Part shown: in pieces, positions 1,381-48,306 of the stretch
Numbering within the stretch: the stretch's first letter is position 1
Layout of the letters: every line of letters begins with the position of its first letter
Assembly (NCBI GenBank): GCA_001600635.1
Contig: BCKL01000025.1
Location: forward strand, 340,790 to 404,789
Reading direction: 5' to 3'
Source: Leucosporidium creatinivorum
Lineage: Eukaryota > Basidiomycota > Microbotryomycetes > Leucosporidiales > Leucosporidiaceae
DNA: 64,000 nt
Program-made: the position numbers and the translations under genes
The notes under the pieces: generated by a model
The model's database searches: none
Told to the model about the DNA's origin: nothing
The model's input: only the letters and a program-made list of their open reading frames with translations

Positions 1381-2406
1381 ATGCGCCCCTGGAGCTCGGC
1401 AGGCCTCTTCTACGGCGTTTGGGCGACGATTGCCTCTCTCGTCTTTGCGGCAACAGCCCATGTCGAGTGGGGAGGAGCTCTGCGCGCTCTCAATATGATA
1501 CATCTCCGTCGGCGTCATGGGAAGCTCTCGGTCAAGCACTCGAGGAGGAGCAAGGGAGCCATCGAGCGAGTTCCGGAGGAGGTTTGGCGCATGATCAGGG
1601 GGACGGTGTTGCAGGAAGTGTGGGGTACGGAAAGGGTGATGATGGATAGGATGAGGTGCGAGGAGTGCACCAAGAAGGAGTGGGATTTGGCGAGGAAGGA
1701 CAGCGAGGAGGCTGGGGAGGGGCCCGCCGAGCGGGACGACCACCGAGTGCAGCCCAGGTTCGAGTGGGATCATTGGAGTCGCCCGAGCTGCAAAGACTGC
1801 CTCAAGGGGGTGCATAAGGAGAATCTTGGGTCACCCTCGGGTCGCGAGGTAAGTTCCAACCTCCTTGCCGAGGTGTGAAAGCTCCGAGCTCCCTCTCCCC
1901 TACGCGAGAGCTGATCCTCCGTGCTTCTACACCACCAGCGCATCAAGCGTCTACTCTGTGATTGTGGTCTCAAATATCTTCTCTATGAGGCGGTGGAGCT
2001 TGGCGAGCAAAGCTGGGACAAGTTCTTCGCCATCACCCTCGAGGAGCGACATATCGGCGAGACCCCTCCAGCTTGGGAAAGAACTGCCGAGGGCGATTGG
2101 GACGAAGAAAATCAAGGCGGTACTGCTATTGTCAAGATGGCGCAGGAAGATTTCCACCTCCCAGCCGACGCCGACCATCGCTTCGCTCGCCTCGTCGCCG
2201 ACTTTGGGCTCCGCTTGGAGGACCACTACCATCCCAAACCCAAGATCCCTCCCCCGGTCGCTAGCCCAAAACTGGATGATCGCTCAGCTCGAAACTTCCT
2301 GTTGGAGTTTTGTGCGCCGCAGGGGAGGCCGGAGCAGAAGGAGGTGATCACTTCTCGGATCGTCAAGCCGTGTTGGTCGCTGCGGACTCATTGCGGGCAA
2401 CAGTAG
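1381..2406 (+). CDS. Family member A1: FYGVW / F-box-like / Cys-cluster protein (intact)
   Basis: Two exons, 1381-1848 and 1939-2406, joined by a GTAAGT...CAG phase-0 intron, encode about 311 residues with an open frame throughout. The ATG is chosen because every paralogue starts at the same position before the W-S-x-A-x-L-F-Y-G motif. Visible parts in order: N-terminal SSAGLFYGVWAT (about 5-16); a basic HLRRRHGKL stretch; an F-box-like helix VPEEVWRMI (about 64-72); RCEEC (about 92) and W..WSRPSCKDC (about 128-138), which could bind a metal; after the intron a domain beginning RIKRLLCDCGLK; LPADADHRFARL; and a terminal KPCWSLRTHC. I see no signal peptide or clear membrane helix. The family is unknown to me. 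A substrate-receptor (F-box) role is only a suggestion from the PEEVW helix. Confidence 0.78.
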
Positions 2407-2969
2407 GGTGTCAGGAGTATGTTTAGTGGCTTATACAGCTTCCTCGTCTACCGCGAGGTGCAAAAAAGCCCTCATCTTTGCCTTTTCGTTCTTGCTCGGC
2501 GCTCGGCGTTGGCTTCTGACCCGGCGAGCTGCCTTTCAATGCCTTTGCGAGGTCGTTTGGGAGGCGTCCATCCTTATAGGCTAGGTGTGAACTGAGGTCC
2601 CGATTGACCATGACCTTCGAATGCGTGTGAGCGAAGCAGCGAAAGGGAAGGCGACAGCTCTTCGCCGAAGCTCGGTTACTGCACCTTACAGAGAGCTGCA
2701 GGCAAGTCATGCAGCGTCAATAGTACTAGAGACACCTCTCGGTCTGTTTTTGATCTTCTCAGCTCCCTTCACCTCACTTGCGCACCTCCTCTTCTCTCTT
2801 TCATCTTGCGCTCGAACCTGGTCCGCCTCTCCTGCCACATCCTCGTCTCGCCTCGCCGCTCGTCTACAGCTCCCTGAAGGACCTCAAAGCAGCAGCTACA
2901 CCTTCAGCACTCTATCTACAAGCTCAACCTCAGCCCCTCCCTTCGCCCTCCTTCGCTCGCCCTCTCGAA

Positions 2970-3985
2970 ATGTGCTGGAGCAACGCGACGCTCTTCTATG
3001 GCCTCTGGGTCACTACAGCGTCGCTCAACTTTGCCGCCACCGCACACAAAGCTACTCGACACACCTTCCTCGCTATCGACCTCATCGTGCATCGCCGTCG
3101 CTCTGGAAAGCTCGAGATCACGGGACAGGACGAGACATCACGACGGCGAGGGAGCTGCCCGAGGAGGTGTGGGAGATGATCAGGGAAGAGCTGCTCGAGA
3201 GGGCGGTGAGGAAGGCCGAGCTCGATAAGCTGGACGAGCTACGCTGTGACTGGTGCACCGCTAGGGACGCTGGACAGCACAAGTGCTTCTGCCCCGAGTG
3301 CACCTTGCAGCCCGCTCAATTGGAAGACGAGCACTACTGGAGCCACTGGGGACGACCGGACTGCCCCGTTGGTGCAGGATGCAATTCTCGCATCGCCAGG
3401 TCGGGCTTCACCTGGCAGCGTAGCGCAGAGCAAATCTCGGCGAGTCCCGACCAGTCCTCAAGCCGTTGTCTGCTTCCAGCTGACCCAATGACACTCTACA
3501 GAGCATCTCCAACCTCCTCTCGGAGTACTCTCTCCCCCTCGCTAACGTCGAGATGTGGCACGAGAAGCCTACCAACCGCACCTTGGACTTCGAAGCTCTC
3601 TCGGCGATCGCTCTGCCGCTCCACTCGACTCACCAGCTCAGGCAGGACTTCGCAGCGCCTGAAGCGAAAGCTCTACATACGTATCGAGGAGATCATGCGG
3701 CCAATTCCGTCTTCGATCTCTCCCCTCAAGCTCTCGCGCCCCCCGCCGATGCCGACCGACGCTTCTTCTGCCTCATCTACCTTCGTGTCGTCGACCGCTC
3801 CAAGGTCAGCATCATCGCAGTCGATGAATCCACAGCCTCGCCCATCGCTTTGCCTCAGCTCGACCCCACCGACCCTACGCCGAACGTTGGAGTGCCCTTG
3901 GCGCAAGAGCCAGTTCAATTTGGATAACTCTTCGCCGAAGGAGAGCCGCGCTGGATGCTGTGGAGCTTAGCCGAGTCTTGTTGAT
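2970..3985 (+). pseudogene. Family member B1, decayed copy (frameshift plus premature stop)
   Basis: This is a B-type copy starting MCWSNATLFYGLWVTT at 2970, nearly the same as B2 and B3. After GKLEITGQDE, at about 3133-3145, it has two extra nucleotides relative to B2. The conserved ARELPEEVWEM segment is therefore in another frame. The Cys cluster (RCDWC, then W..WGRPDC) follows in that second frame. The family intron is present at about 3440-3501 with a GC donor (GCGAGT). The downstream exon keeps ADADRRF, but an in-frame TAA at 3925-3927 cuts off the conserved LFAEGEPRWMLWSL end, which continues in frame to a TGA at 3983-3985. Two independent lesions make a pseudogene likely. A sequencing error could explain at most one of them. 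Confidence 0.75.
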
Positions 3986-5044
3986 GAGACGTAGCGTATG
4001 AGGGAGCTTCAACTTTACCAATACGACCGAACCCTTGCCATCGTCGCGCCGAAACTCGCCCCTCGCCTTTTCGGTCCTCCTCAGAGCGAGAAGGATGACA
4101 TGCGAAGGCCTACAGCTGCGACTAGCTTCGAGTTGTTCAACGCTACTTCGCTACAGCGACGACCAAGGCGAGCAATCTGCGGAGCCATCGTTGATCCGTA
4201 GAGGATGCGCCGAGGTCGACTGCACCTACCGAGCGCTAGCTCAGTGCCGCGAGTCGGGGTGTGATGAGCTGAACGAGCTTGACCCCTTCAGACCTCGCGA
4301 GATGTCGAAGTCGCGTCGAGCACTGGGACGCTTTTCCTCCTCCGCCGCAAGCAAAGGGTGAGGCACCTCTCCTGGACGCTTCTACGAGCTCTCTACGGCT
4401 CCAATCGCCTATTCTGATGATCTACAGGATAATTTGCGGATGAGGTGCAAGCTCTTTCCTCGTACCGAGGTCAAAACAGTGCGCCTTCGCCGGACACTGG
4501 GCTTGCATCGCGGATTCCACTTTTCGTGTCTGATTCTACGGCTTTGGGGACACCGAGCAACATCCACGAGACATTGAGAATTCGTACTGACGTACTCTCG
4601 CTCCCCCCAGGTCACCTCGGCGATTTTGGTGCAGCAGGACACGAGCAAGCACGAGAAAAGGCCAGGCAGGAAAACGCCGAGGTGCGGCTCACGAGGCTTT
4701 GCAGGTGCTGTGGAGCGTTGTACGACGGTGATTCGTGTCTTTGATGATGGGCAGCGGTGCTGGGGCAGCAGCGTGCATCAGGGGAGCGAGGAGTGTTGTG
4801 TTCAGCGTCTCGCCGAGGCCGAGGCCTCGGTGCACTCTCAGCTGTTGTACATCACTGCCAATTCACTTTTGACTTCACTGCACTCCGCTGCTGCTCTCAC
4901 GCGAACTCTGCTCCACTACAGAAACTCCCCGCCTTTGGAGCGAATCCCTCGGAGACCAGCGTTCGTCCCTTTGGCTTCCTCGTCGCCGCTGGTCTTGCCT
5001 CTGCTCCGACACGTCGCTCGACAAGCCCTTGAAAGAGCTACAGG
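3986..5044. other. Intergenic, no gene supported
   Basis: About 1.06 kb between pseudogene B1 and the AIF-like gene. Only short overlapping open frames without recognisable motifs or consistent splice structure are present. The last 150 bases are pyrimidine-rich and probably form the leader of the gene starting at 5045. Confidence 0.5.
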
Positions 5045-8000
5045 ATGTCCTCCAGCAGGATGACCTCCAGCAGCACATCTCGCCCGCTCACCCCCTCCGA
5101 AGCGACGAGGCTCATGCTCGAGAAGTGGGACCGCATGGAGGCGCTTCAGGACGCCGCACCAACTCGAGGACGACGACAGCGCGCCAGCTCAGTGCCAAAC
5201 CGAGAGCATACGAGGTCTCGTGTGAGGGAATGGGAGCGCTTCGACAAGGAGCGAGAGCGGCTCCGGCTCATCCAGGTCGAGACGGAGCGATTAGCGGACG
5301 AGGAAGCAGCTCGCAAGGTATGGGAGGGTCAACAGGAATCGCGCGACCGGCGGAGGAGACGGAAGAAGTCGCCTACAAGGAGCGAGACGCCCGAGCTGCT
5401 TCGGCAGCTCGAGAGCGGTTCGTTCGAGTGGATGCCGAGTCGAGCGGTCAGCGTCGGACCTTCCGTAGCTTCCACCGGATCAGCTACTGCAGCTAGTCGC
5501 TACAGCGAGGACTCGGAGAGGCCGTTTCTCTTCGACAGCGCGAGTGAGGGGGAGCCGGAGGTCGAGTCGTTGGCAAGGTCAAGGATTTGGAGGCGGAAGG
5601 ATGAGCTGAGCGGGAAGGAGACTGGAGCTGAGACTGGTAGAGGGAGTAGAAGAGGTCGTAGACCACCGGCGAGCCATCGTAAGTGCCCCTCCTTCCCAGC
5701 TGAACCTTCGCCGAAAGATCAAGCTGACCTGTTTTCTCGCCCAGCCCGCCCATCTCCTCCTCCTCCACCACCTACGAGAGCTGAATCTCCATCTTCCTCC
5801 ACTGCAAAACCCTCCAGCAGACGACCACACCCGCGCCATCGTTCCCACTCGCTCCCCGCCCGATCTCGGCGCTCCCCCTCCCTTCGCCCTTCGCCATCAC
5901 CCTCACCCGCACACACTCCCCGCAGCCCGAAAGGCTCCTCACCTCTCATTTGCTCAGCCTCATTCTCGGACGACGATAACGAGCCGCCCAAGACGGCTGT
6001 AGAAGCGGGCTTGCAGGCGCTCGAGCAGTTGCCGGGGGCGATTGGCGCTGGGCTGTCGAAACTGCTCCCGGGGTTGTTCTCGGGGACGTCAACGGATGTG
6101 CGAGGAAGTGCGATTGGAGTGGTGAGAGCTGAGGTCGGGAGGGTGGGGGAGATGGAGGAGGGCGAGATGTGAGTCCTCGGCGAAGATCGCCGAAGGAAAG
6201 GTCGAATCTGACACTGTCTTCGCCTTCAGGAAGGAGGTATCGTTTCTAGCAGCTCGGTCGAAGCTCTTGCTGTGCAAGGTGCGTTCGACTCGCGCTCGGA
6301 AGCTTCGAAACCCGCCGAACTGACCAGCTTTCGCGCACAGCTCGACGGGAAGATATATGCTACTTCGTCGCGAAGTACCTACGGCGCTACTCGATTAGTC
6401 AACGGCGTCTTAACTGCCGACGGAGTCGTCAGATGGTGAGGTTTCTGCGCTTCGAGCTCGCCGAGTCGTCGCTAACGTTGCGCTCTCCTCCCAGCCGCCA
6501 TCATGATGCCGCTTTCGACATCCGGACTGGCGCCATAGTAGACGGACCACCTCTCGCTCCTCTGCATACCTTCCCCGTGAGTCTGCCTGCCTCGCAGCCT
6601 CGGGCGCCGCCTGACATTCGCTCTCGCAGACCGAGGTCGATGCTTCCGGCGCCATCTTCATCTCCACCATCATCTCCAAGGTCGACTCGCTTGAAGGCGC
6701 CGCTCCGACTCGAGTGCGGCGCTCGAAAGAAGAAGGAGGCGTGGTCATCGTCGGCGGAGGCGCCGCTGCCTTCTACCTCGTCGACGGCCTTCGCACCGGG
6801 GGCTACAAGGGCGGTATCACACTCATTGAACGAGGGAAAAATGTACCTTATGATCGGTCAAAACTGTCAAAGAGGTGGATGGAGGAGGAGGAGGAGCTGC
6901 TGCTGCGCCAGTCAACCTATTACGAGAAGCTCGGCGTCGAGGTTCGGCTGTCTACAGTACGTCTCCGCCACCCAGAATCTCTCAGATACTGCTGAGAGAT
7001 CGCTGACTTTTCTCTTGACCTACAGGAGGTGGTCTCGGCCGACTTTGAGGAGCGATTTGTGGCTCTCGGCGAGGGCTCCGTCCTCAACTTCGACAAGCTC
7101 GTCATCGCTACGGGAGCTACACCCCAGAAGCTTCAGCTACCAGGCAGCCGTCTTGACGGTATCTTCACCCTTCGGTCCATGGAGGACGCTATCGAGCTAC
7201 GCCGCGCCGTCAACCCCTCCAAAGTGACCCGGCGACCCCTCCGAGTTATCATCATCGGCTCCTCGTTCCTCGGGACAGAGCTAGCTACTCTCCTCGCCTC
7301 CAACAAGCTCACCAAGAGTCGTCCAAAAGTCACCATCATCAGCTGCGACCGCTACCCCCTCGAAGAGCTGCTCGGCACTCGACTCGCTACTTCCCTCCTC
7401 ACCTCATTCACCGACCTCGGAGTCAGCCTTATCCACTCGTCGCCCGTTACCGCCTTCCTTCCCTCCTCTTCGTCATCCTCACACGTCGGAGCGGTACAGC
7501 TTGCCAGCGGTGAGCGAGTATCCGCTGATCTCGTACTCCTGGCAATCGGCGTCAAGGGAGCTGCGCCGAGCTGGTTGAGGCAGATGAAGGGCGTGAAAAG
7601 TGAGGATGGGAGGGTCGAGGCGGATGAGAAGAGTAGGATCAGAGGGCTGGGGAAGAAGAGCGGGGTGTTTGCTATCGGTGAGTTCGGGCGTTGAGGAGAG
7701 GCAGGCGAGAGCTGATTCAAGGCCGCCGAGCAGGAGACGTCACATACCGGCGGGACAAGACGACGGGCCAGATCATCAAGTCCGAACACTGGAACCAAGC
7801 TGCGGTGAGTAGCTGTACTTCAACCCTCCTCCTCCTCAGCTTGCGCTGATCTCGTCCCTTCGCAGAACCAAGCCCGAGCCCTCGCGCACTACATCATCAC
7901 TTCGAAGATCCTTCCACCACAGCCAGCTACCATCATTTAGTACGTCTTCCATGACTCGGGCCCTTCACCCCTAATGATCTCCTTGACCGCCCTCGCAGCT

Positions 8001-8432
8001 CGTCCCAACCTCATCCCCTCCACCTCCTCCTCACGCCCTCAGCTCCGGCCTGGGAGACGACCATGATTCTCGGTTCGCTCGACAAGCTCTCCTGCGTTGC
8101 TTACTATGCTCGTACGCCCTTCTCTTTCTCCTGCTCCCGCCGAGGCTGACTGACCCCCTCGGCCCTCTCGCTCGCAGAATCCAAGACAATTGTCTCCATC
8201 GCCCAGTTCGAGGACCCAAAGGACGATGACGGGAGTCCGTTACTCGTCCATTGCAAGGAGCTGATGAGGAGGGGTAAGATGTTGACGTTGGAGGACGTTA
8301 GAGCGAGGAAGGTGAGTCGCCGAGCCGAGCCGTTCCCCTTCGGCGCCGGGGTGTCTCGGTAGTCTGCATCGTCGGCTGATACCTCGTTTCTTTCACTCCT
8401 TTCCGCAGAATCCGATGAAGAGGCTGCTGTGA
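5045..8432 (+). CDS. AIF-like NAD(P)H oxidoreductase with degenerate Rieske domain and long disordered N-terminus
   Basis: Twelve exons (5045-5678, 5745-6168, 6230-6278, 6341-6435, 6495-6576, 6630-6956, 7026-7677, 7722-7804, 7866-7939, 7999-8111, 8178-8311, 8409-8432) give about 896 residues in one frame. Residues 1-340 are Ser/Arg/Pro-rich and look disordered, with a glycine-rich hydrophobic stretch near 320. A Rieske-type fold follows from about 345 (EEGEMKEV...LDGKIYATSS). The usual C-x-H half is altered: Cys is Ser and the His is missing (SRSTYGA). The second half keeps VVRCRHHDAAF. Next comes a pyridine-nucleotide-disulphide oxidoreductase core: VVIVGGGAAAFYL (FAD), VPYDRSKLSK, VIATGATP, RVIIIGSSFLGTELA (NAD(P)) and LLAIGVKGA. 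The C-terminal domain keeps HWNQA. It is probably a flavoprotein related to AIFM3 or ferredoxin reductases. Joining the N-terminal region to the Rieske part relies on the 6169-6229 intron, which rebuilds GEM-KEV. Two separate genes remain possible. Confidence 0.8.
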
Positions 8433-16659: not shown

Positions 16660-17685
16660 TCAAAAGCAAGGCTCACACAAGCTCCAGAGCATCCAGCGCG
16701 GCTCAGCCTTGGCGAAGTGCTTCGGCGTTTCCTTCTTGGCTTCGGCTTGCCTGTTCGAGCTGTTGTCGGCCGTCTTCTCTTCCTTGCTGCCCGTCGTAGG
16801 AGGGAGAGGAGAGGCGTCGGAGAGGCGAGGGTTGCTGGGAGCGAGGGCTGAGCCCTTGGTGCGGTCGCGAACGTCCAGGCGATAGCTCGAGACGAGGCGT
16901 CGGAAGCGGGTGTTGGCGTCGGCGGGGACAATGAGAGCTTCGGGGGTGAAGTTGAAGACAGTGTTGGCAGTTCCGAACTCGTGGTGGCCTTCGGCGCGGC
17001 TAGCAGGGAAGCCAGACTCGGTTGAGGCGAGAGGAAGGGCGATGGCCATCAGGCTGTCGAAGTCGAAGTAGCCGTCCTCGCCGTCTCGCCTCCACATCTG
17101 ATCCCCAGCGAGGCAAAGCTGGTGATCCTTGAGGAGACTGTTGATGTCCTGCTCGAGCGTAATGTGGTCAGCAGAGGGCTTTCGCTATCGCCAGCCGAGG
17201 GCAAGAGGCCATCCACTGACCGCCAGCTGCTGTAAGGTACGTTCACGCAAGACGTCGGACTCTGCGACGTTCTCGAAGCAGCCATAGTCGCATGGAGGCG
17301 AACCCCAGCGATTCCACGCGTGCTTGGAAACCGGCTCGGGGCCTTTGCTGTGGCAGGGGCACCATCCATCGACGCCCGAGTTCTCGTAGTCCTGCTCCAC
17401 GCACCAATCGCAACGGAAACGCGAGAGCCTGTCCTGCTCTGCCTTTTCGACAGCGCCACCGAGCAACTCGTCCTTGACCATCTCCCACACCTCCTCAGGC
17501 AGCTCCCTGGCGGTCGTCTTCTCATCCTGTCCCTTGATCTCGAGCTTGCCAGAGCGACGGCGGTGTACGAGGAGATCGATAGCGAGGATAGTAGGTCGGG
17601 TAGCTTTATAAGCTGGAGCGGCAAAGTCGAGCGAGGCTGTAGTGACCCAGAGGCCATAGAAGAGCGTCGCGTTGCTCCAGCACAT
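16660..17685 (-). CDS. Family member B3: FYGLW / F-box-like / Cys-cluster protein (intact)
   Basis: On the minus strand, exon 1 is 17685-17221 and exon 2 is 17148-16660, separated by a 72-bp phase-0 intron with a GTCAGT donor. The product is about 317 residues. It starts MCWSNATLFYGLWVTTASL, then has VHRRRSGKLEIKGQDEK, the F-box-like LPEEVWEMV, a Cys cluster (RCDWC, WCPC, W.RWGSPPCDYGC), and after the intron DINSLLKDHQLC, VPADANTRFRRL and the end EPRWMLWSLCEPC. It is the closest intact relative of B2. About 190 bp of upstream DNA, with the CTCAAAGCAGCAG and CTCGCCCTCTCGAAATG segments, also matches the B1 and B2 leaders, so the promoter was copied with the gene. The function is unknown. Confidence 0.8.
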
Positions 17686-29376: not shown

Positions 29377-30328
29377 ATGCCTTGGGGTGAAGCTGGCGTC
29401 TTCTACGGTGTGTGGGCGAAAGCCGACTCGCTCAGCTTTTGCGCAGAAGCCACACTTACTATCCGAGGTGCTCTACAAGCCGTCGACCTCATCATCCTGC
29501 GTCGTCAGCTCAACGCCCTGCACGTCGGCGCCGAAGGGCGGAACTCTGCGTTGGCAAGAGTCCCGGAAGATGTGTGGCGCCTAGTGAGGACATGCTTGCT
29601 TGAGGAGGTGTGTGCGATTGAGCAGAGGGCTCTGAGCGAGTTCAGATGCAAGACCTGTGAGGAGGAAGGTTGGGACTGGGCGCGAAGAGCGAGGGATACG
29701 AAGGTGATGGTGGAGGGGACCGAGGTCACGCTCAAGCCCGACTATGAATGGGTGTCTTGGGGTAAACCCGAGTGCAGGCACTGCGGGAGCGGCGAGTCGT
29801 TCTTCAGATCCGACAAGAACATCCAGGCAAGTCCGATCTCGGCGCATTGGCTCGGTTAGCTTCGTGGGCTTTTGGCTGATGCTTATCTCCACACAGAGGA
29901 TCACCGCCTTACTGCAACAGTACGGACTCGACCTCGTCTTCCACGCCGAGAACCGATTCGAAGACGAGGAATATTCGGAGTGGGATCAATTCTTCATGCC
30001 AGTCGGCGTTCTCAACCACCTCGGCAGGAAGCAGAGTTCTATCTATCCCTGTATCCAGACGTGTAGTGGGGAATATATTGGCCCCACTGAAGTCTCTTCC
30101 TTCCCCGCCGAACTCCTTCAGCTCCCCTCCGACGCCGACGACCGCTTCGCCCGCCTCCTTGCCGACACTGAACTCCCAACAGGCAGCGGTGCAGCTATAC
30201 CAATGAGGATAGAGCTCTTCAACTTTAGTCGCTACCTTCAGCCCAGCTCGACGCCACGTCGTAAGGTCACGAACGACGCGGCGAAGCCTTGCTGGATGAT
30301 GTACGGGTCTTGCGGGACTGATGGGTAA
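29377..30328 (+). CDS. Family member A3: FYGVW / F-box-like / Cys-cluster protein (intact, GC-AG intron)
   Basis: Exons 29377-29826 and 29897-30328 give about 293 residues. The intron sits at the family position but has a GCAAGT donor. Using it joins NIQ to RITALLQQYGLDLVF exactly as in the paralogues. Domains: MPWGEAGVFYGVWAK; ILRRQLNAL; the F-box-like VPEDVWRLV; RCKTC and W.SWGKPECRHC; then LPSDADDRFARL and the end KPCWMMYGSC. It is the most diverged member in the window, for example in the Cys spacing after the second CxxC and a shorter C-terminal linker. It stands alone, without a B partner. Confidence 0.78.
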
Positions 30329-30538: not shown

Positions 30539-33500
30539 CTACTCCCAAGATGCGGTGAGATAGAAGCGAGCATCCTCCCATCCAAGCTGCTTCTCGCCCT
30601 CTCGCTCCTCGGCGGCGACGGCTTCGACGGCCCTCCTCTCGATGACGCCCCACTCTTCCAGCGTCTCGAGGAGCATGAGCACTTGAGGGAGCGTCAAGAG
30701 ACGGACGGCGTCCGAGCGAGCGAACAGTTGTTGCTGTGGGCGGAGTGAGTGAGGTCAGCGATGTCGCCGAACGAAAGAGTGAGAGAGACTCACAGTGGTC
30801 GCGCCGCTGTGCAAGAGGAGAAGACCCTTGATCCATCCGGTCGCCTTCTCCCACATCGCAGGAATGACCTCGCCGTGGAGGTCACGCCATGGGGCTGGGA
30901 AGATGCGAGTGAGAGTCGAATCGTCCTCCTCGACGTCGACCTCGGGCGTCTTTTCGACCTCGAGCTCCTGCTCCTGCTCCTGCTCGTCGTCCTGATCTTG
31001 ACTCGTCGCATTGTCCTTCTCGGGGACCTCCTTGCGCGGGAGGACGGCGACGGTCCAGCTGGCGAGGAACTCGCAGGCGACGAGGGTGACGGCCTTCTCG
31101 CCGGCGAAGAATGCTAGGGGAGGGGTAGAGGAGGTGAGGGTCTTCTGGGCGGTCTTGAGAGCGATTGAGTCCATCTGAGGGAGTTGAGTCTGCAGGAGCT
31201 TTGCACTTAGCGAAGCTCGAGCCGCGAGAGACGAAGCGCGACTCACGGCGAGGACGTTGAAGGACAAGCCAGCGACTCCAGCAGCAGTGACGAGGTCGAG
31301 CACCTTAAGCGCAGAAGCTCCGTCGTCGGTGGCGATGCTCTCGAGCTCCGAGCGGGCGGCGGCGAGTGCGATGGGATCGGCGGTGTGGCCCTCACGAGGG
31401 AAGACGGGAGGGTTGCGGGGAGGCTGCGAGCTGACGTCGAAAGGTCCAGCCGAGTCGTTGGCCGAAACGAAGATGGAGAGCTCGTAGGCCTCGTCGTCTG
31501 TTGGAGAGAGGAGAGCGGCGTCAGCATCGAAAGGAGAGCGAGAAGGGTCGAGTGATTGCGCGTACCCTTCTGACGGGTCTGGTAGTCGTTGGGATCACGG
31601 AAAGCAGCAGTAGTGGAAGTGTCGACGTTCATGGTCACCTGTGCGCATTGAGCGACGTCAGCTAGTGTCACTCCGCGACGAGAAGCGATATTCGGCTCAC
31701 CTTGCCCTCCGAAGCGAGACGGATGAGCGAGATCATGTCGCCCTCGAGCGCAAAGAGAGGCCACTCGATCGACTTCTCCTCCTCAAGAGCGAGAAGCTCG
31801 CGCTCCTTGTGCGAAGCGATGAGGCTCTTGGAAGGGCTGATGAGGTCCTCGAACGAGGAGTGGAATCTGCGAGCATGATGCGTGAGCTCGAGAGCGGCCG
31901 AGTCACGGAGAACACGCTACTGACCTGTCCGAGAGTTTATGGCCCCGACCAGGAGCGCGACGAGTGCTCTCCTTGGTACCCTTGGGCTTGATGATGACGG
32001 CGTTGTCGAGCAAGTCCTTGAGGGCCGGCTCGAAGTTGGGCTCGAAGGGCCTGAGGAAGCGGGCGCCGCGAGCAGGGGTGTAGTGGTGCTCGGAGGTGGT
32101 GTAGAGCATCTGCGCGAGAGAAACCGGGTAGGAGTTAGATCTCGGAGCTGGCGAGCTCGCAAGCGGCGGACGACTGACCTTGAGCGCCTCCTCGGTCATG
32201 ATGAGCTCGTGGTTGCCAGCAGGCGGTTCCTCGGTCAAGCAGATGGTCGAGAACGGAGCGGCGGCGGCTTCCTCCTCCCTGTTGGCTCCCGACAAGCCCG
32301 TCTTCCAGTAACGATCCCAGCGAAGCGTCTCGTCCTTGTTGCCCGAGCGCGAGTCGATCACAAAGTTGGCCTCGAACTCGGCGAGAGTCGCGGGAAGCTT
32401 GATGATGGGAGCAGCCGACTCGACGGCGGGACGAGGTCCAGTGAGGCGACTGCGGGATGGGCGAAAGAGTGCGAAGTCAGCTCGGCGTCGGGAGGAAGAA
32501 GCTAAGTGAGAAAGAACGTACAGAGCTTGCTTGTCGACAGTGGCCCTCAAGCAGCGGACAAAGTCGGCGAGCTCGAAACGAACCTGATCCTGAGGATGCT
32601 CGTCCGGCAGCTCGGCACTGCCGCGCTTCTTCTCCCACTCGACGTGCCAAGCCTCGACGAGACGGTCATGGTACGTCTGCTCCTCCCTCGACTGGGTGAG
32701 CCTCTTGAAGTGGTGGCGCATCTTGCTGGAGGGGATCTCGGAGAAGAGCTGGGAGAGCGTCGTCCAGACGACACGACGACCGACGTACTCGGCGCGAGCC
32801 TTGAGGATGGCAGCGGCGTCGAGGAGGAGGTCGTCTTGCTCGGCGGTGAAGAAGTTGCGAGGGAGTCGTCCATTGTCCTTGAGCTCGGGAGCGGGGCGAG
32901 CGGGCGCCGAGAGGAACTCGTTCTGGCGGTTGGCGGTGAGGGAGGGGTAGTCGGCCTCGCCGAGCATGGAAGGGGGAGCCGCAGCGACGGCAGCAGCGGT
33001 AGCCTCCTCGTCTCCACTCATAGCTTGATCGTCGCCCTCTCCGTCGGCTCCGCTGTCGGCATCCCTGCTCGTGCTAGCGACAGGGTTGTCGGTGAGCGGC
33101 TTGGGGAGCGCCTTCTGACGAGAGCCGAGCGTCGCCCTCGACTTCCTCGACGAGAACATCTTGGCGGCGGGGAGCGAGTAGGGGTCGTCGCCGAGCTGAA
33201 CGGAGCGACGAATGTTGGCGGGAACGATGGAGCGGTAGCCGGGGATGTGGCCCTCGGGGAGGAGGAGGCTGAGCTCGGACTGGAGTTGAGTGGTGTCGAT
33301 GAGACCGCGGCGAGAGTGACAGAAGCGACGTTGGAGGACCTCGATGATGGCAGGGGGGAGTGTAGGCTGGCCGTGCTCCGCCTTGAAGCGCTCGACGACG
33401 GCGGTGAAGGCGAGCTCACGAGCAGCCGCGGCGTCGGCATGCTTGGTCTTCTTGGGTCCACGAGCGCGGCGAGGGCGAGGTGCACCATCTTCTCCGACGT

Positions 33501-36500
33501 CGGATGCGGGCTCATCCTCCCACTCCTCTTCTCCATTCTCTCCCTCGGCGACCTTCCTCCTCTTCCTCCTGCCCTTGCCACCCTTCTTGCGCTTCTCGAG
33601 GTTCTTCTTCATCTTGGCGAGCCTCCTAGCCTTCGACTCGATAACGTGGCGCATGTAGCGCTCGATGACGACCCTCGGCGCGACGGTGTCGGTGGCGATC
33701 CTGTCCAAAGCCTCCTCGTCGTCGAGGATGGCGTTGTTGGTGGTGACGAGCTTGCTGAGGTACGTCCTCTGCGAGCGGAGGAGCATGTAGTCGGCGTGCC
33801 ACTTAGTCGACGAGGTCATGATCCTGCCGGCGAAGCCGGAGGGGGCTCCCGCGAAGGTGAGAGGGAAAGGACCGGCATCGGCTTCGTCGAGAACGGCGTG
33901 GCGAGCGACGTTGCCGGGGAAGGAGATCTCGTGAAGCTTCTCCCAAAAGAAGGTGGCTCCGGCGGTGGAAGTGACGTCCACGATGGAGACGAGAGGGTTG
34001 TTCTTGCGAGCGAAGGCGTAGACGGGGACTCGAGGGTTGAGCTGCCAGTGAGTCGCCGAGGTCGACTTGGTAGGGCGCTGGTAGGTGTGCTCGAGGGTCT
34101 GCGACTTGTCTCCGAGGGCGAGGACGAGAGGAACGAGAAGGCCGAGATGGGAGAGCGTCTCGACGGCGGGCCAGAGGGCGCGTTGGCGAATGGCGCTGTC
34201 GGGCTTGAGCATGCCGAGGATGTCCTTGGGAAGGTTGGCGAGAGGAATGGTGAGGTTGGCGGGATCCGCGACGAAAGCGTCGAGCTCGCGACTGTCGATG
34301 GGAAGGGTGACGATGCGGAGGTAGTCGCCGAGGGGGAGGAGCGACGTGAGAGTCGCATGCGTGAAGACGACGGGCGAGGTGGAGATGAGGTTGGCTCCCA
34401 CCTCGGCGTTGTTGACCCACTGGATGAGCCAGTGGTGGATGCGACGAGCTCGAGCGACACGTCCGTAGAGCGCGCCAAACTTGGCTCCAACGACGCCGGG
34501 GATCCTCCTAAAGTAGTCCCTTACGACCTCGGAGCTGTCGTCCACGGCCGGCTCCTCGAGAATGCCGATCGCCCTCGGCGCGAGTCCGTCGTCGAGGGTG
34601 AGATCCTCCGCCTCGCGAAGGTCGGGCACCTTGCCCGTGCGAGTGAGCTTGCGTTGCGAGAGCTTGGTGCAGAAGGCGGTGAAGCCCTCGTCGTCGAGAG
34701 GGAAGGCGAAGAGGGAGATGATGTCGGTGCGTCCAGAGGGAGTGCTGACGGTCGTCTTCTTGATGAGCTTGCGGTCGATGAGGCCGGTGATGAGCTCGTT
34801 GCAGGACCGCTTGTCCATCGTGTGCTTGGCGCCGGAGGAGTCGGGGTGGTACTTGTTGTAGAAGGCGCGAAGGACGTTGCCGAAGCGAATACCGTACTCG
34901 CAGAAGCCGTTGGTGGAGGGGTGCTCGAGGAAGGTGATGATCTCCATCTGCTTGGCGAGGAAGGAGTGGCTCGCCTTGGGCGTGCTCTGGCTGGCGCCGA
35001 GAGCGCGAGAAGAGCGAACGCGCTTGTCGGAGGGGGCGCGCGAGAGTCGGCCGACGCGAGGGTTTTGAGGGATGGCGGAGCCGGAGGGAGCGGGGGAGGA
35101 GGAGATCGAGAGCTCCGAGGTAGGGGCGACGGCTTCGGATTGGGGTAGGGGAACATCGGAGGCGACTAGGAGACGAGGGTCAGCGCTCTGTCCCCGCCTC
35201 TCGAGCAAGCGAAAGACTCACCATCCTCGTCCTCATCCTCATCAATCACAATCTCCTGCACCTGCTTCTCCTTGGCGCCCTCCTTCTCCTTCTCCGGCTC
35301 TTCCTCATCGCTCTCCAACTCATCCACCTCAATCGTCTCGACCTCCTTCTCCTTCTCGACGCTCTTGGGCGCAGGCGCCGCCGCGCTCTTCTTCCTCGGC
35401 GACGGGATGACGACCTCAAAGGCGGGCTTCGAGCGCTTCTTGGGCCTCTGCGTCGACGAAGGAGGAGCAGCAGCCTCCTTCTCGGCGACGACGACGACGG
35501 CATCCTCCTCCTCCTCATCCGAGTCGACCTCCTCGGGAGCCTCGGATTGGCGACCGCGCTTGCGAGTAGCAGGCGTCTCCTTCTCCTTGCCCTTGGCGGC
35601 GGCGGCGGCGGCGGCGGCGGTGGACTTGCGAGGGATGCGTTTGGCGGTACGAGGAGGGGTAGGCTCGACGTCTGCGTCGGGCATGAGCGAGTCCTCGTCG
35701 GCGTCGGCGGTGGCGGTGGAGCGAGGACGAGGAGCAGCCCATCCAGTAGCAGCGGGAGCGGGGTCGACCTCCTTGGCTTTGGTGGTGCCCTTGCCCTTGC
35801 CCTTCGTCGAAGGCTGCGAGATGGCCGCCGCCTCGTTGTTGTCGTCGGAAGATTCGAGCTCGTCGATCTCGATGGGCTGGAGGGTTGTGGTAGAGTTACG
35901 TCCCGAACGACTCTTGTTGGCGGGAGTCAACTTGGCCTTAGGCTGGGACGGGCCAGCCGTCTCCTCGTCTCCATCCTCGGCGGGCGTCTCCTCCTCTTCG
36001 GCCTTCTTCTTGGCCTTCGCCCTTCCCCTCTTCTTCGGCTTCTCGCCGTACTCCTCCTCCTCACTCTTCTCCCCCGCCTCCCTCTTCGCCTTCCTCTTAA
36101 TCTCCTCCACCCTCGCCTTGACAATCTTCTCAATCTCCTCATTCTTCTTCTCGCCCACCTGCCTCGGCTCCAACCCAATCTTGGCCCTCTCCTCATCCTC
36201 CATCTTCCGCCTCTCATAGTAGGTCACCTGTCCTGCCTTGGGCGCGCTCTTGCGAGGACGGCCGATCGCTTTGGGCTTGATGTCTTCGGCGGGAGGGGCG
36301 GGAGAGCCGGAACGAGAGGGAGAGGCGGAGGGGGAGGGAGAGGCGGGTTCGGAGGTAGGGTCGCGAGGAGCCTTCTTGCGAGGTTTGGGAGCGGGAGAGG
36401 CCTTCTTCGACTTCTTGGGCTTGGCGGCGGCGGGAGCGTCGGCGGTGGTCGAGTCGTTGCCATCCTCCTCGTTGGCGCCCTCGTCCTGCTCTTGCTCCTG

Positions 36501-39568: not shown

Positions 39569-39696
39569 ATGGACCGATTCGTAGGGTTAAATGCCACTAC
39601 AGAAACCCTTTCTGCTCACCTACACCCGGACGAGCGATTACTAGTACAACAGGACGGGGTAGGCCTCTACGACGGGTCAGTCTCCCTCTCCCTCTG

Positions 39697-39732
<36 letters not shown>

Positions 39733-41812: not shown

Positions 41813-42176
41813 TGCGTTTGTTTGGGAGGCGAGGGGAGGGGAGGGAGGGGTAGAGGGGGGAAATGGTGTGTAGACTGATGCAAGGAGAGGTGAGGCTTCG
41901 GCGATGAGCTGAAGAGGGGTTCGTGAGGTCGCGAGGCTTGGAGATTGCGCTGCAGGCTTTGAGGGCGGGTATGGCGGTCGCTGAGCTCGAGCTGTACAGT
42001 CGTGACGGAGGGGATCGGAAGCTCGCATCGACGGCGGTACTCTCAGAGCCAACTTCGAGCAGCTCGAGCTGGCCTCTTTCTTTTTTTTACACCTCCTCCT
42101 CCTCCTCCTCCTCCGACCTCTGTCTCCACTCTCTCGAAGCTCGACTCAGCACACCTCCAACCCAACCCGTCTCAAC
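41813..42176. other. Intergenic upstream of A2
   Basis: 364 bp between VPS36 and A2. From about 42000 it matches the A1 leader (see the duplication), including GGTACTCTCAGAGCCAAC. It also has a (CTC)n tract near 42092. No gene is seen. Confidence 0.45.
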
Positions 42177-43214
42177 ATGCGCACCTGGTCCTCAGCGGGG
42201 CTCTTCTACGGCGTCTGGGCCACGACCTTCTCTCTCACCTTCTCCTCCCAAGCCTACACCGAATGGGGCGGTCCAATCCGTGCTCTCCACCTCATCTTCG
42301 CTCGCCGTCGTCTTGGGACTCTCGCTGTTGAAAAGGGAGTCGTCGATAAAGTGCCATCGAGAGGAGGTTCGAGAGGAGGTGAGTCGTCGAGAGGAGGTTT
42401 GGTTGATGATGAGGAGGATGGTGGATGAGGAAGTTGGGGAGTTTGAAAGGAAGGCTATGGGGAGGATGAGGTGTGAGGAGTGTAGGGAGAAGGGAGGGGA
42501 GACAGCGAGGAAGGAGGGAGGGGAGAAGGGAGGGGAGGTAAGCGCCGAGCTGGAGTCGGAAAAGGAGGAGCACGAACTCAAGCCCAAGTTCGAATGGGAT
42601 CGATGGGGGCGGCCAGAGTGCACACGATGTCTTGACGGAGTATATAAGTACAATTTCGGGTCACTCAGCGGCATCAGGGTAAGTTGTCGAGTTCGCCCCG
42701 AGCCTGAGCAGTGCGGCACTCCGAGCTAAGCCCTTTCTCTCTCTCTCTCACCTCGCAGCTCATAGAAGCGATGCTCCAAGCCTACGACCTCAAAGTCGTC
42801 AGCTTCTCCGAATCAGCTCGACTAGCGGAGGGGACTTGGGACAGTTTCCTTCCCATCACCCTCGCTCGCCGAGGAGCCTTCAGAGCTCCCGACTTGGCCA
42901 TCGACGCAGAAGGCGAGTGGGACGAGACCGAAGGCGTGACCTCAACGTACAGGCTCCACCCCGAGTCGTTCGACCTCCCTCTAAATCCTGATCGACCGAT
43001 CGCTCGCCTCGCCGCCGACTTCCCCATCTGGATGGAGGATCACTTCCACCCGAAGCCTGAGGCGCCCCCCGTAGTCCGGCCACACGCTGGTACGGGCTCG
43101 ATGGAGGAGTTTATGGCCCTCCTCCGCCCGCCGAAGAGGGAGGAGTCCGACGTCAAGGTCTCGAGGTGGGTGAAGCCGAGCTGGTCGTTTTGGGGTCAGT
43201 GTGGGAGTCAGTAG
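42177..43214 (+). pseudogene. Family member A2, frameshifted copy
   Basis: The copy starts MRTWSSAGLFYGVWATTFSL at 42177 and is close to A1. Just before the F-box-like helix there are three copies of TCGAGAGGAGGT (42357-42368, 42369-42380, 42387-42398), where A1 has a single comparable unit. Here the reading frame changes: the start frame runs to a stop at 42426-42428, while REEVWLMMRRMV, RCEEC and W.RWGRPECTRC lie in the +1 frame. The GTAAGT intron (42679-42758) is intact. The downstream exon is open to a stop at 43212-43214, with the ending KPSWSFWGQC. Its LPLNPDRPIARL has lost the usual ADxRF. A GTGAGT inside the repeat might be used as a new donor, but splicing there would remove conserved residues. 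Confidence 0.65.
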
Positions 43215-43783
43215 CGTCCCGGAGAGATAGTTAAGACAACCTGTAGCTCGTGTTCTGTCCTTGAGGTGCAAAGAAGCCCTCACTTTGACCCTTTCGTGCT
43301 TCCTCGGCGCTCGGCGTTGGCTTTGTTACCCGGCGAGCGGCCTTTTCATGTCTTTGCGAGGTCGTTTGGGTGGCGTCCATCCTTATGAGTAAGGTCTGGA
43401 TTGCGATCGTGACCGACCATGACCTTCGACTGCGTGTGAGCGAAGCAGCGAAAGGGAAAGGCGTCAGTTCTTCGCCGAAGCTCGGTTGCTGCACTTTACA
43501 GAGAGCTGCAGGCAAGCCATGCAGCGTCAGTAGTACTAGAGACACCTCTCGGTTTGTTTCTGATCTTATCAGCTCCCTTCACCTCACTTGCGCACCTCCT
43601 CTTCTCTCTTTCACCTCGCGCTCGACCCTCGTCCGCCTTGTCCTCCTGCCACATCTTGCTCGTCTCGCTTCTCGCCGCTCGTCGAAAGCTCTCCAGAGGA
43701 CATCAAAGCAGCAGCTACACCTACAGCATACCAACTATAAACTCACCCTCAGCCCCCCTTCGCCCTTCGCTCGCCCTCTCGAG

Positions 43784-44785
43784 ATGTGCTGGAGCAACGC
43801 CACGCTCTTCTACGGCCTCTGGGTCACTACAGCCTCGCTCAACTTTGCTGCGACAGCTCACAAAGCTACTCGACCCCCTATCCTCGCTATCGATCTCCTC
43901 GTACACCGCCGTCGCTCTGGAAAGCTCGAGATCAAGGGACAGGACGAGAAGACGACGGCGAGGGAGCTGCCCGAGGAGGTGTGGGAGATGGTCAAGGACG
44001 AGCTGCTCAGCGTCGAGGTCAGGAAGGCGGAGCTCGATACTCTGGACGGCCTTCGATGCGAGGACTGTCAGCTCGGGGGAGGCAGCTGCATCTGTCGCCA
44101 GTGCGAGTTCGATCGCGTGAACGGCCTGTTTGGGCCCTGCTGGACCACTTGGGGATACCCCGATTGTGCCACTGGCTTCTGCATGGACAACGTCGCCCAC
44201 TCGGGAGCTCTCGATGGCCGCACCAGCGAGCAAATCGAGGTCGGTCGGCGTACTTTTGTGTTTCCTCCCCGCGCTGACCTGGAGCCTACGCAGGACATCG
44301 GAGCGCTTCTCGCCAGCTATGGGCTACAGATGCCGTCTACCGACATGTGGCACGAGGACTCGGACAATCAGTTTCTCGACTTCGACAGCCTCTCGGCGAT
44401 CGCGCTCCCTCTCCGCTCGTCTAAATCCGCCAACTATCCTTCCTCGCGCGCTGAAAGCTTGCCTGAGTATGGAACCGGATCCACGGTCCTCGACTTCTCC
44501 CCCTACGCCCTGATCCTACCCCCCGACGCCGACCGACGCTTCCGCCGAATCGTCTCGAGCTACCGTCTCAAAGCCGCCGGCCGCCCGCATGACTCGGCGC
44601 TCACTCCCAACGACCCTCACCTCACGCTGCTCAAGCGTTCTCCCACGAAGACGGCCGCCATCGACGAGAAGCTGGTCGAGAAAAGCTCGGGCCACAGGAA
44701 CGGTGAGGTCAAGGGAACGCCGAGGCTCTTCGCTGAGGCTGAACCTCGCTGGATACTGTGGAGCTTGTGCGAGCCGTGCAGCTGA
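43784..44785 (+). CDS. Family member B2: FYGLW / F-box-like / Cys-cluster protein (intact)
   Basis: Exons 43784-44239 and 44294-44785 give about 315 residues. The 54-bp intron (GTCGGT donor) is a multiple of three and open, so retention would simply add 18 residues. Its position matches the family intron. Features: MCWSNATLFYGLWVTTASL; VHRRRSGKLEIKGQDEK; the F-box-like LPEEVWEMV (about 66-74); a dense Cys set RCEDC, CICRQC, CWTTWGYPDC and FCMDN; after the intron DIGALLASYGLQ, LPPDADRRFRRI and the end EPRWILWSLCEPC. The open frame extends upstream of the chosen ATG, but paralogue alignment supports 43784. No localisation signal is seen and the function is unknown. Confidence 0.8.
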   Translation: MCWSNATLFYGLWVTTASLNFAATAHKATRPPILAIDLLVHRRRSGKLEIKGQDEKTTARELPEEVWEMVKDELLSVEVRKAELDTLDGLRCEDCQLGGGSCICRQCEFDRVNGLFGPCWTTWGYPDCATGFCMDNVAHSGALDGRTSEQIEVGRRTFVFPPRADLEPTQDIGALLASYGLQMPSTDMWHEDSDNQFLDFDSLSAIALPLRSSKSANYPSSRAESLPEYGTGSTVLDFSPYALILPPDADRRFRRIVSSYRLKAAGRPHDSALTPNDPHLTLLKRSPTKTAAIDEKLVEKSSGHRNGEVKGTPRLFAEAEPRWILWSLCEPCS

Positions 44786-45054
44786 GCTTGTGTCGGCATA
44801 GCTCGCATGATAGCTTAATGAGAAGCGACGAGATAGGGTGCGCAGCACGAGAGCGGTCGCAATCGAGTCGCCGAAGATTGATTGTTGGTGTAGTTCGACA
44901 AGCTCAAGAACGATGCTCTTCACGCTGAATGTCTCTGAGAGCCTGCACCCTCCCTGCAAACAAGTCCAATGCGAACGAGTCGAGTCACTTCAAGCTCTCG
45001 GCGCGGAATGATCGAGCTCAACCCACGCTCGGCGTTACAGCTCCCTTCCAAGAA

Positions 45055-46962
45055 CTACCTATGCACCACCAATCCCTCGTCCTTCTCCCCAGCTCCACCC
45101 GCCAACCCACCCTCAACGACCTTCTTCCACATGCTCTCATTGAGCGCGACAGCCTTGCCGAGCTGTCCCCTAAGCTTGAGGACCTCCTCCTCGAGCTGCG
45201 AGACACGAAGGGTCTGCTCGCCTGCTGCTGAGGCTGTCGGTGCGGAGGTAGTAGCCACAGCGGAGGAGGATACGACGCTGGTGGGCGACGAGAAGTCGAG
45301 CAGATCCCTCACATCCCTCTGCGCTCCAATCCTCATCTCCACCGTCCGACCTCCATGACCACCCTTACCCCACTCGCTCTGACTCCGCACACTCCTGCCC
45401 ATCCCACCGAGCATGATCGGCCTAGTAGGCAAGCTCGTCGGTGCGGTGGTTCCCGCTCCGAGCTCAGGCGGCCGGAGGAGGGTGGTGAGGAAGGTGATTG
45501 GGCCGGGAGGGGTGGAGGAGAGGGGAGCTGGGATGATGCGGGTGGGGAGGAGGGAGGGGAGCGATAGGATGTGGATTTGGGAGGTCGAGGTGCCGAGTAG
45601 GAGGGTGGGCGAGTGGACCGAGAGAGAGAGGGAGGTGATGATTTCTCTGTTTGACGAGGCCAGATCAGCGCCGAGCAAGTGGGAGAGACCGAGTAAAGAC
45701 GTGCGGGATAACGTAGCTTGTCTCCTCCTTCACGCTTTCCACATCTCCCCTGCCGCCTCCTCCAATCGCCTCGGTGCTGGCGTAGCCAAACTCGTCCTTC
45801 TTCTTCCGGTACAGCGACACCTTGGTCACCCTGCTCGCTTCTACACCACCCTCCTCGACTGTTGTAGGTCCAGCAGCGAAGAAAAAGCGCTCCAGTGGGT
45901 CGAAAGCGACGTGAGAGATGGGGGAGGCGAAAGAGAAGGTCGAGAGAAGGGAGGGAGGGGAGGTCGAGATGTCCCAGATCTGGTGGAATGAGTGAAAGGT
46001 CAGATTCGAAGCATCTTCAAGGAAAGCGGCGCAACCCGCCTTGCAAGTAGCATCGAGGGAGGCGGTGAGAAGACGGCAGTGGGGGAAGGTGCCGAGCCCG
46101 ACGGCGATGGAAGTGATGGGGAGGGTGTGGTCGGTGAGAGTAGCGTAAGCGGTAGGAGGGTTCATCGGCGAGGCGTTGAGGAGCCTGCACACGGTCGCAG
46201 GTCGCAGGAGGTCAGCTCGGCGCGTTCGAGAAGTAGCGGGGAATGTCGAAACTCACCTGCCCACGTTCCATACGCTCACTCCTGCATCCTCGGATCCAGA
46301 GATCAGAGCAGCATCGTCTTGTGAGAACTCGAGGACTGATACAGCGCGGTAGTGGGCGTCAATGGTGAGGAGTAGAGTGCCGGAGGAGAGCTGTCGGTTC
46401 GGCGAAGGGTCAGCTGTCGGTCCCCCTGATAACGGAGCAGCAGGAAGCAGCAACGCACCTCCCAGAAGAAGATCCGACCGTCGGCGGTTCCTCCTGCGAG
46501 GTAGAGACCAGCATGCGAGATGCAGATGGTCGACAGGCGAACTGGCGGGATCAAACGCTGCAGAACTTGCTCCTAGTACCGTCGAACGAGCACAGGGTCA
46601 GCTCCTAGCCCTCAAACCACTTTTCCCGAACTCCAGCAGCTGTAGCTCACCTTCTGAAAGCCCCAGACGTTCACACCCGCTCGCCCATCCTTTCCTCCTA
46701 ATCCCACGACGACTCCACCCATTCCAGCCTGACTCTGCACCAGTCCCATCGTCTTCCTGTACTTGAGCTGAGGTGCATCCTTGCCCTCGCCCGCTGCGTT
46801 TGCGGGAGTGGCCTGAGTTGAAGTTGAGGCGTTGGGAGACTTGAATGAGAAGAGGGAAGCGCCCGTAGTGAGGGAGTGTAGCGAGGTGGTCGGCAGAGGG
46901 GAGGCAGACGAGGTTGAAGAGAGGAGCAGCTCGGTGAGCTGGGGCTGCGATGCTGTAGCCAT
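45055..46962 (-). CDS. IPI3: Ipi3/WDR18-like WD40 protein, pre-60S ribosome biogenesis
   Basis: Six exons (46962-46651, 46572-46459, 46390-46257, 46184-46040, 45979-45690, 45646-45055) give about 515 residues. WD40 blades are clear: LAGGTADGRIFFWELSSGTL, AVSVLEFSQDDAALISGSED, VSVWNVGRLL, ITSIAVG...CRLLTASLD, IWDIS and SHVAFDPLERFFFAAG. The early VNVWGFQKEQVLQRLIPP is typical of Ipi3/WDR18, which works with Ipi1 and Rix1 in ITS2 processing in the nucleus. The C-terminal VSQLEEEVLKLRGQLGKAV predicts a coiled coil, as in relatives. Intron 4 appears to use a GC donor (GCGGGT at 46034-46039), since only this keeps the IWDIS blade in frame. The exon-5 donor (GTCTCT, about 45689) is weak and is the least certain join. 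Confidence 0.82.
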
Positions 46963-47232
46963 CTGGAACGAGGAAGTTGGAGGAAAACAAGCGGCGAGCT
47001 GGCGAAAACGCAGAGGACTGCGAAACGGACCAGAATCGCCTACAGCGGTCTGTTGGCTACTTTATTGCTCTGCTAGCTCTCGAGGTGACTGGATAAGCCT
47101 CTCCGTGCTTCCTCAAGCCCTGCAGTGCTCTTCTCGGCGATCTCTCGAGGCTCGAGCCAACGCCGAGCCGAAGCGAAAGTTGGAGGTCGCTTACGCTTCA
47201 TTGCGCTCAAATCCACTAACAGTACGACACTA
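46963..47232. promoter_or_regulatory. IPI3 upstream region
   Basis: 270 bp between the IPI3 start (transcribed left) and the A4 stop. It must hold the IPI3 promoter and the A4 3' end. No specific motif is assigned. Confidence 0.35.
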
Positions 47233-48306
47233 CTAGCTGTTCGAACTGCGCTCGCACAAGGTCCAAAGATTCCAACAAGGCTTCACCGCCGCCCTCGGCT
47301 CCTTCTCCGAGCCTGACTCCTTCGGCGAGGGAGGGGGAGGGGGCAGGGGGTTGCTGATGGGCACCCCAGCGTTGTTGACGCGAACGAAAGGTATGCTAGG
47401 GCCTGTACGCATGATGGGGTCCAAAAGATCCTGCGCGCGAATCCCATAGTCGGCGATGAGCCGAGCGAATCGCTGGTCGGCGTTGGCGGGGAGCTGGAAT
47501 CCCTCCTGAGGTAGCTTGACGGAAGTGGCGGCTGAGTCGATGTGCTCGTAGTTTTCGAGCTCCGCTTCAGCCTCGGTGGCGGCAGGGAGCGATCCGTCTC
47601 CTCCTCGGCGAACGCCAATGGCGCAGAAGTTGTCCCACAGGTTCCCGTACTGCTCGACGGCTTCGGCGTGGGCGAGCTCGAGTCCGTAGCGCTGAAGCAA
47701 TCTTCTTGCGAACTGTGGGTCGTGGCGCAAGTCGTCAGCTTTCCAGAAGGCGTCTCGAAGCGGGCTCGGCGATCGACTTACCCCGAAAGTCTGCCACGAC
47801 CCGAGCTGCTCCCCATGCACGCCCTTGAGACACTCCTCGCAGGCAGGCCGACCCCACTCGCTCCACTCATACTTTGGCTTGAGGCCTACACCGTCTTCCT
47901 CTGCCCAGCTGTCGAGCTCGTCTGCCAGGCCGGCTGAGCTACCCACCGCCGATCCTCCTCGCTCCTCGTCGACCTCCCGCCTAGCCACCTCCCATCCGTT
48001 CTCAGTACACTCCCCACATCTCATCCTATCCATCATCCATCTCTCCGAGTCCTGCACTTCATCCATCACCACCCCCGAAATCAAGCTCCAAACCTCCTCC
48101 GGCACCAAGCCAACAGCACCCCTCTGCCCCTCCTCGTGCTCAACCCGAAGCACACCCTCTAGGCGACGATGGATGATAATATTGAGAGCAGTGATCGACC
48201 CTTGCCAGAGCTTATAGGCCTCAGCAGCGAAGCTCAGAGACGACGTCGTGGCCCAGACGCCGTAGAACAGTCCGGCTGTACTCCAATTGGTCGTCCAGGT
48301 GGTCAT
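47233..48306 (-). CDS. Family member A4: FYGVW / F-box-like / Cys-cluster protein (intact)
   Basis: Minus strand, exons 48306-47782 and 47712-47233, about 334 residues. The intron (GTAAGT donor, 69 bp, open in frame) is at the family position. Visible parts: TNWSTAGLFYGVWATTSSLSF; IIHRRLEGVLRV; the F-box-like VPEEVWSLI; RCGEC and W.EWGRPACEEC; FARRLLQRYGLEL after the intron; LPANADQRFARL; a proline run; and KPCWNLWTLCE. It is closest to A1 and A2. An upstream in-frame ATG at 48360 would add 18 residues, but the paralogues favour a start near the WS motif. It lies alone, next to IPI3. Confidence 0.78.
   Translation of the reverse strand: MTTWTTNWSTAGLFYGVWATTSSLSFAAEAYKLWQGSITALNIIIHRRLEGVLRVEHEEGQRGAVGLVPEEVWSLISGVVMDEVQDSERWMMDRMRCGECTENGWEVARREVDEERGGSAVGSSAGLADELDSWAEEDGVGLKPKYEWSEWGRPACEECLKGVHGEQLGSWQTFGVSRSPSPLRDAFWKADDLRHDPQFARRLLQRYGLELAHAEAVEQYGNLWDNFCAIGVRRGGDGSLPAATEAEAELENYEHIDSAATSVKLPQEGFQLPANADQRFARLIADYGIRAQDLLDPIMRTGPSIPFVRVNNAGVPISNPLPPPPPSPKESGSEKEPRAAVKPCWNLWTLCERSSNS

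Follow-up and report, generated by a model that had tools for sequence, protein, structure and literature searches.

The wtf driver genes of fission yeast form a multicopy family that is concentrated on one chromosome, includes broken copies and codes for membrane proteins, with two products. In Microbotryum lychnidis-dioicae, Cys-rich families are presented as predicted small secreted proteins in the passages of PMC4469406 devoted to them. The passages of PMC3236058 on pheromone/receptor (P/R) mating loci place RibL18ae next to STE3.A1 in red yeasts, and STE20 and KAP95 on the flanks of a pheromone gene in S. salmonicolor. Here, we analysed a 64,000-nt stretch of Leucosporidium creatinivorum DNA (‘the window’; positions 340,790 to 404,789 of contig BCKL01000025.1, hereafter C25), in which a sequence-only reading had pointed to seven related genes with an FYGVW-type start and a set of Cys residues. 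Our favoured explanation, to which we give a probability of roughly 0.4, is that these genes belong to a family that evolves by birth and death, is restricted to the contig with the P/R mating locus and encodes intracellular proteins, probably zinc-binding, that serve in recognition or as adaptors.

Seven gene copies in the window

All seven copies were found at the starts and on the strands first proposed; they are called A1 to A4 and B1 to B3, with positions in window coordinates (Table 1). A pattern search detected FYG[VL]W, R-C-x2-C and W-x2-W...C in each of them, and [LV]PE[ED]VW in six, the exception being A3, in which the closest counterpart, REEVW, is in a different frame. The motif plan attributed to all copies thus stands for its FYG[VL]W and Cys parts but fails for LPxxADxRFxRL, which is present in its strict form in A1, A2 and A4 only, with looser forms in B1 to B3 and A3. 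The final W-x-[LM]-x3-C is present in all five intact copies; A3 has F for L in this motif, and in B1 it comes after a stop, with no Cys at that distance. Mean column identity in the alignment of the five intact proteins is 49%. A degenerate DNA pattern for FYGVW has seven matches in the genome, all of them on C25, against none for the reversed control. The seven-copy family is therefore confirmed as real, beyond chance.

Once the phase-0 intron is spliced out, A1, A2, A4, B2 and B3 code for proteins of 293 to 334 residues. The single phase-0 intron ascribed to every member is present in these five, whereas A3 and B1 are frame-broken. Four of the five genes originally taken as intact (A1, A4, B2 and B3) are so; A3 had to be removed from that list because of its frame break, and A2, which had been omitted, is intact given an intron at window 29827-29896 that is apparently GC-AG.

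Copy number and confinement to C25

We searched the genome (27.7 Mb in 63 contigs) with the proteins of A4, B3 and c04, which represent different subtypes. Each returned the same 29 places, all on C25, a contig of 440 kb that represents 1.6% of the genome. As such counts are lower bounds, the family has at least 29 copies, and these span 41 to 389 kb of C25. The sole match elsewhere with E <0.001 (E 7e-5 and 9e-6) is a decayed relic at C12:508929-509057, which retains the N-terminus and the late WMLW block but has lost most of the middle. The suggestion that seven copies in the window imply a larger, genome-wide expansion was thus right as to size and wrong as to extent.

Twenty-eight of the 29 copies were read, c08 (C25:93312-94103) being the unread one. 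Twenty-one are intact, namely 20 with automatic models that have a phase-0 GT/GC-AG intron of 52 to 90 nt, and c19, established by eye. Five copies are broken (c01, c05, c20, B1 and A3) and two are uncertain (c14 and c18). The automatic models of c05, c14, c18 and c20 were judged unsafe and excluded from the 20-model counts, c05 and c20 being frame-shifted and c18 apparently lacking an acceptor AG. Parts of these four copies are rows in the exon-1 alignment behind the Pfam, NCBIfam, PDB and F-box profile tests, and c05, c14 and c18 entered the tree of 23 models and the upstream-motif count described below. An alignment of the automatic models and a list of their pairs likewise included all four.

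The spread of copies over 350 kb of C25 might bring to mind the cargo of a mobile element or a domesticated transposon gene. This is scarcely credible, as none of the 25 integrase matches in the genome, which represent the sole element family tested, lies on C25, and a single relic was found off that contig.

Protein plan and selection

The proteins, of approximately 300 residues, have a conserved, predicted helical N-terminus (YG[LV]W ... RRR ... LPEEVW) followed by two Cys pairs around a hypervariable spacer; the part encoded by exon 2 is moderately variable and ends in a PRWML-like block. With loose patterns, YG[LVI]W and the PRWML-like end were detected in all 20 models and an LPEEVW-like hexamer in 19 of them, and of the two Cys pairs, C-x2-C is conserved in 19 and C-x2-4-C in all 20 intact models. 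The spacing of these pairs, from which we infer zinc binding, is compatible with a C4 zinc site. No membrane span is predicted, the highest mean hydropathy over 19 residues being below 1.6 in all 20 models (A1 is nearest, with 1.57), and on these grounds a membrane protein was considered unlikely.

Nonsynonymous (dN) and synonymous (dS) divergence were estimated by region for 14 models, compared in 28 pairs within their own subtype (B, I or II; see below), leaving aside A1, A2, A4, c09, c10 and c17 as too diverged or unplaced. In the N-terminus (approximately residues 1 to 60), median dN is 0.07 (B), 0.27 (I) and 0.09 (II), and median dS is 0.63, 0.90 and 0.38, respectively. In the Cys segment, median dN rises to 0.76, 1.02 and 0.63, with median dS of 2.32 (B), saturated (I) and 1.51 (II), and exon 2 has intermediate dN values (0.51, 0.67 and 0.34) and median dS of 0.92, 1.36 and 0.99. 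Conservation is thus graded, with an N-terminus under purifying selection and a hypervariable middle. We make no claim of positive selection because median dN is never above dS.

In the most serious competing explanation, which we consider possible but rather doubtful, an orphan gene of no remarkable function has simply multiplied through local duplications; the variable middle would be a relaxed linker, confinement would stem from duplication within one chromosome, and the mating locus would be nearby by coincidence. The five broken copies among the 28 that were read agree with it, as does the fact that C25 carries core genes (see below) and none of the integrase matches, unlike a degenerate sex chromosome. 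Nevertheless, most copies look selected, given the low dN values of the N-terminus and the fact that both exons are open in 21 of the 28 copies. In addition, both Cys pairs persist beside the variable spacer.

In 23 of the 28 pairs, dS of the N-terminus is below that of exon 2, which is compatible with gene conversion of the 5' ends or with constraint at the DNA level. The heptamer CTACAGC is found in 18 of 23 upstream regions of 400 bp versus 33 of 600 random C25 stretches, an enrichment inflated by shared ancestry; the heptamer might serve as a start-site element or as a splice acceptor in the 5' untranslated region. A pheromone-response promoter was rejected, ACAAAG not being enriched upstream (1/23 versus 35/600).

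Searches for known families

The family was initially described as unrecognised, and our searches bear this out, with no credible match in Pfam, NCBIfam (exon 1) or PDB. The five full window proteins gave a single chance-level Pfam match (E 0.23). With 24 exon-1 and 21 exon-2 sequences the best E values in Pfam were 0.033 and 0.06, far from a match, and none of the 24 exon-1 sequences had an NCBIfam match at E ≤0.01. A PDB sequence search gave best E values of 0.29 and 1.1. No zinc family was matched, the best being Zn_ribbon_8 with E 0.32 in one of the 24 exon-1 sequences. Using the exon-1 alignment of five window copies, no homologue was confirmed in viral and prokaryote contigs, and literature searches by title or abstract opening, and with short family peptides, returned nothing on the family. 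Two AlphaFold models, with mean predicted local distance difference test (pLDDT) scores of 43.6 and 49.5, are composed mostly of helices in the first 90 residues.

The LPEEVW helix was presumed to resemble the start of an F-box. If so, the proteins might be adaptors of Skp1-Cullin-F-box (SCF) ubiquitin ligases, in which LPEEVW would open a diverged Skp1-binding F-box and the remainder would recruit targets. A helix is predicted in both low-confidence AlphaFold models, and F-box genes are numerous in the genome (128 PF12937 matches, with 150 of 330 candidates scored). Nonetheless, this explanation is unlikely, and the proposed F-box was not recovered in profile or sequence comparisons: none of the 24 exon-1 sequences matched an F-box model at E ≤1, none of the PF12937 matches lies on C25, and no F-box chain is among the three PDB matches at E ≤10. 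Profile-profile comparison (hhalign) with four F-boxes of solved chains gave a probability of 0.4%, from a small alignment and without a positive control. Furthermore, the most conserved part of the proteins precedes LPEEVW.

Subtypes and local duplications

In the tree of 23 models, the A copies (three rows, support 100/99), subtype I (nine rows, 99/97) and subtype II (c03, c04, c07 and c09, 95/92) form groups; subtype B (six rows, 85/95) is weak, c17 is unplaced and long branches are flagged. Subtypes I and II occupy the left part of C25, and A and B the right part. Adjacent pairs of unlike copies recur (c04-c05, c06-c07, A1-B1, A3-B3 and c20-c21), with variable order and orientation. Local direct and inverted duplications were detected within C25:200001-440178. 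A block of ~3.2 kb at C25:200007-203214 recurs twice, once inverted at 209474-212696 (86%) and once in part at 243949-247151, and each of the three stretches overlaps a subtype I gene at its 5' end. Similarly, the similarity between C25:343244-344038 and 384052-384850 (87%) runs from the end of an A-copy flank into a B copy.

A selfish family held on one chromosome by linkage, as spore killers or meiotic drivers may be, might also combine a high copy number on a single contig with neighbouring pairs of unlike copies, broken copies and partly homogenised 5' ends. We find this improbable, given that no membrane span is predicted and that the order, orientation and subtype of the pairs vary.

Genetic environment and mating locus

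A P/R mating locus is located at the end of C25 (C25:433811-440113; Table 1), and the family thus shares its contig with STE3 and a pheromone-like gene. The latter, a short gene unrecognised by Pfam, was interpreted as a pheromone precursor on the basis of its repeat and an end that resembles a CAAX motif. Family copies lie between ~46 and 395 kb from STE3.

Table 1. Family copies (window coordinates) and mating-locus genes (C25 coordinates)
Feature	Position	Strand	Description
A1	1381..2406	+	Intact; exon 1 1381-1848, exon 2 1939-2406; 90-nt GT-AG phase-0 intron; 311 aa
B1	2970..3984	+	Broken: frame change in exon 1 and stop ahead of the C-terminal block; no automatic model
B2	16660..17685	-	Intact; exon 1 17685-17221, exon 2 17148-16660; 72-nt phase-0 intron; 317 aa
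A2	29377..30328	+	Intact given a GC-AG intron; exon 1 29377-29826, exon 2 29897-30328; 70-nt phase-0 intron; 293 aa
A3	42177..43214	+	Frame break ahead of the LPEEVW equivalent; separate pieces align to the family; no automatic model
B3	43784..44785	+	Intact; exon 1 43784-44239, exon 2 44294-44785; 54-nt phase-0 intron; 315 aa
A4	47233..48306	-	Intact; exon 1 48306-47782, exon 2 47712-47233; 69-nt phase-0 intron; 334 aa
RPL18ae	C25:433811		Mating locus
STE3	C25:435951-436551		Further exon just upstream; only STE3 matches in the genome
ASF1	C25:437560-438204		Mating locus
Pheromone-precursor-like gene	C25:439922-440113		Two tandem EKNPAPPGSYLFCTIA units, CAAX-like end; very end of the contig

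One may imagine that dozens of linked intracellular proteins, each with the same constant docking module and a Cys module of its own, are inherited together with the pheromone receptor and tell compatible or self nuclei apart after cell fusion, in a hypervariable recognition system linked to mating type. Multi-gene S-locus recognition in plants is an analogue of such a system in logic, not in sequence. We hold this reading to be quite improbable. C25 carries core genes, including those for a phage-type RNA polymerase (presumably mitochondrial), a GluRS-type synthetase, an Rpb2-like subunit and OST48, and they argue against a functional mating link, as does the lack of integrase matches on the contig. 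The linkage may also be coincidental: the probability that STE3 falls on a random contig of the size of C25 is 1.6%, and for a random chromosome it is perhaps 5-10%, assuming 10 to 20 chromosomes. With its core genes, C25 is unlikely to be an accessory or B chromosome. A degenerate sex chromosome rich in transposable elements finds no support in the integrase matches, which represent one element family only.

The strongest PBD match in the genome, perhaps STE20 to judge from this domain, begins 1.4 kb inside the left end of C12. Given the position of STE20 and KAP95 on either side of a pheromone gene in S. salmonicolor, as described in PMC3236058, C12 may adjoin C25 on one chromosome, which would place the relic on that chromosome as well.

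Elsewhere, C24:378905-380350 harbours a homeobox match (E 1e-6) and, 1.3 kb away, a weak divergent match (E 0.07, short of the cut-off). This pair is perhaps the HD1/HD2 locus, which may then be unlinked to P/R. In the window, two open frames on the minus strand at 30758-35217 match DUF6581 (E 7.7e-19 and 8.7e-5) and probably represent one gene. A run of N of ~5 kb, which may be an assembly gap, starts at C25:404790, directly after the last base of the window.

A putative family of recognition or adaptor proteins

Our favoured explanation of an intracellular recognition or adaptor family would work as follows. Copies would arise by local tandem and inverted duplication, and their 5' ends would be partly homogenised by gene conversion or kept alike by constraint. 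The constant N-terminus would dock on one shared partner, and the Cys module would bind zinc and display a surface specific to each copy. Together, the members would thus serve inside the cell as a repertoire of recognition or adaptor proteins whose targets differ. The 29 copies found on C25 only, the 21 intact copies of the 28 read, the constant N-terminus, the kept Cys pairs and the lack of a predicted membrane span are all consistent with this explanation.

Several points weigh against it. We infer docking, zinc binding and recognition alike from sequence, and the AlphaFold models are too low in confidence to name a fold. In the middle of the proteins dS ranges from 1.5 to saturated and is above dN, and relaxed constraint would also yield a variable spacer. 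The splice models were picked by likeness to relatives, which makes the shared intron phase partly non-independent, and the comparison with other species covered viral and prokaryote contigs only. Should the linkage to the mating locus be functional, the 29 undescribed genes would be new either as part of fungal compatibility or as a selfish system; otherwise, they would still form a sizeable family with a clear domain plan, absent from the profile libraries that were searched.

Comparison with known systems

With the F-box proteins (PF00646, PF12937), the family would share an LP-E-x-[VL] helix and large numbers in this genome. In contrast with them, it has no profile match, its conserved block lies before the helix and Cys pairs come after it. 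Multiple copies, concentration on one chromosome and the presence of broken members are reminiscent of the wtf genes, from which the family is set apart by the lack of a predicted span and by its one two-exon plan.

The Cys-rich family of M. lychnidis-dioicae, as described in the relevant part of PMC4469406, similarly has no Pfam domains, and three of its four named members are adjacent on the mating-type chromosome. Compared with that description, the proteins reported here have no hydrophobic signal-like segment as judged by hydropathy, and they are encoded by 29 copies. Lastly, in the sections of PMC3236058 on red-yeast P/R loci, RPL6 neighbours the locus, whereas it is on C9 in this genome, and such a gene family is not met in those sections; the shared features are RPL18ae beside STE3 and pheromone precursors with repeated peptide units.

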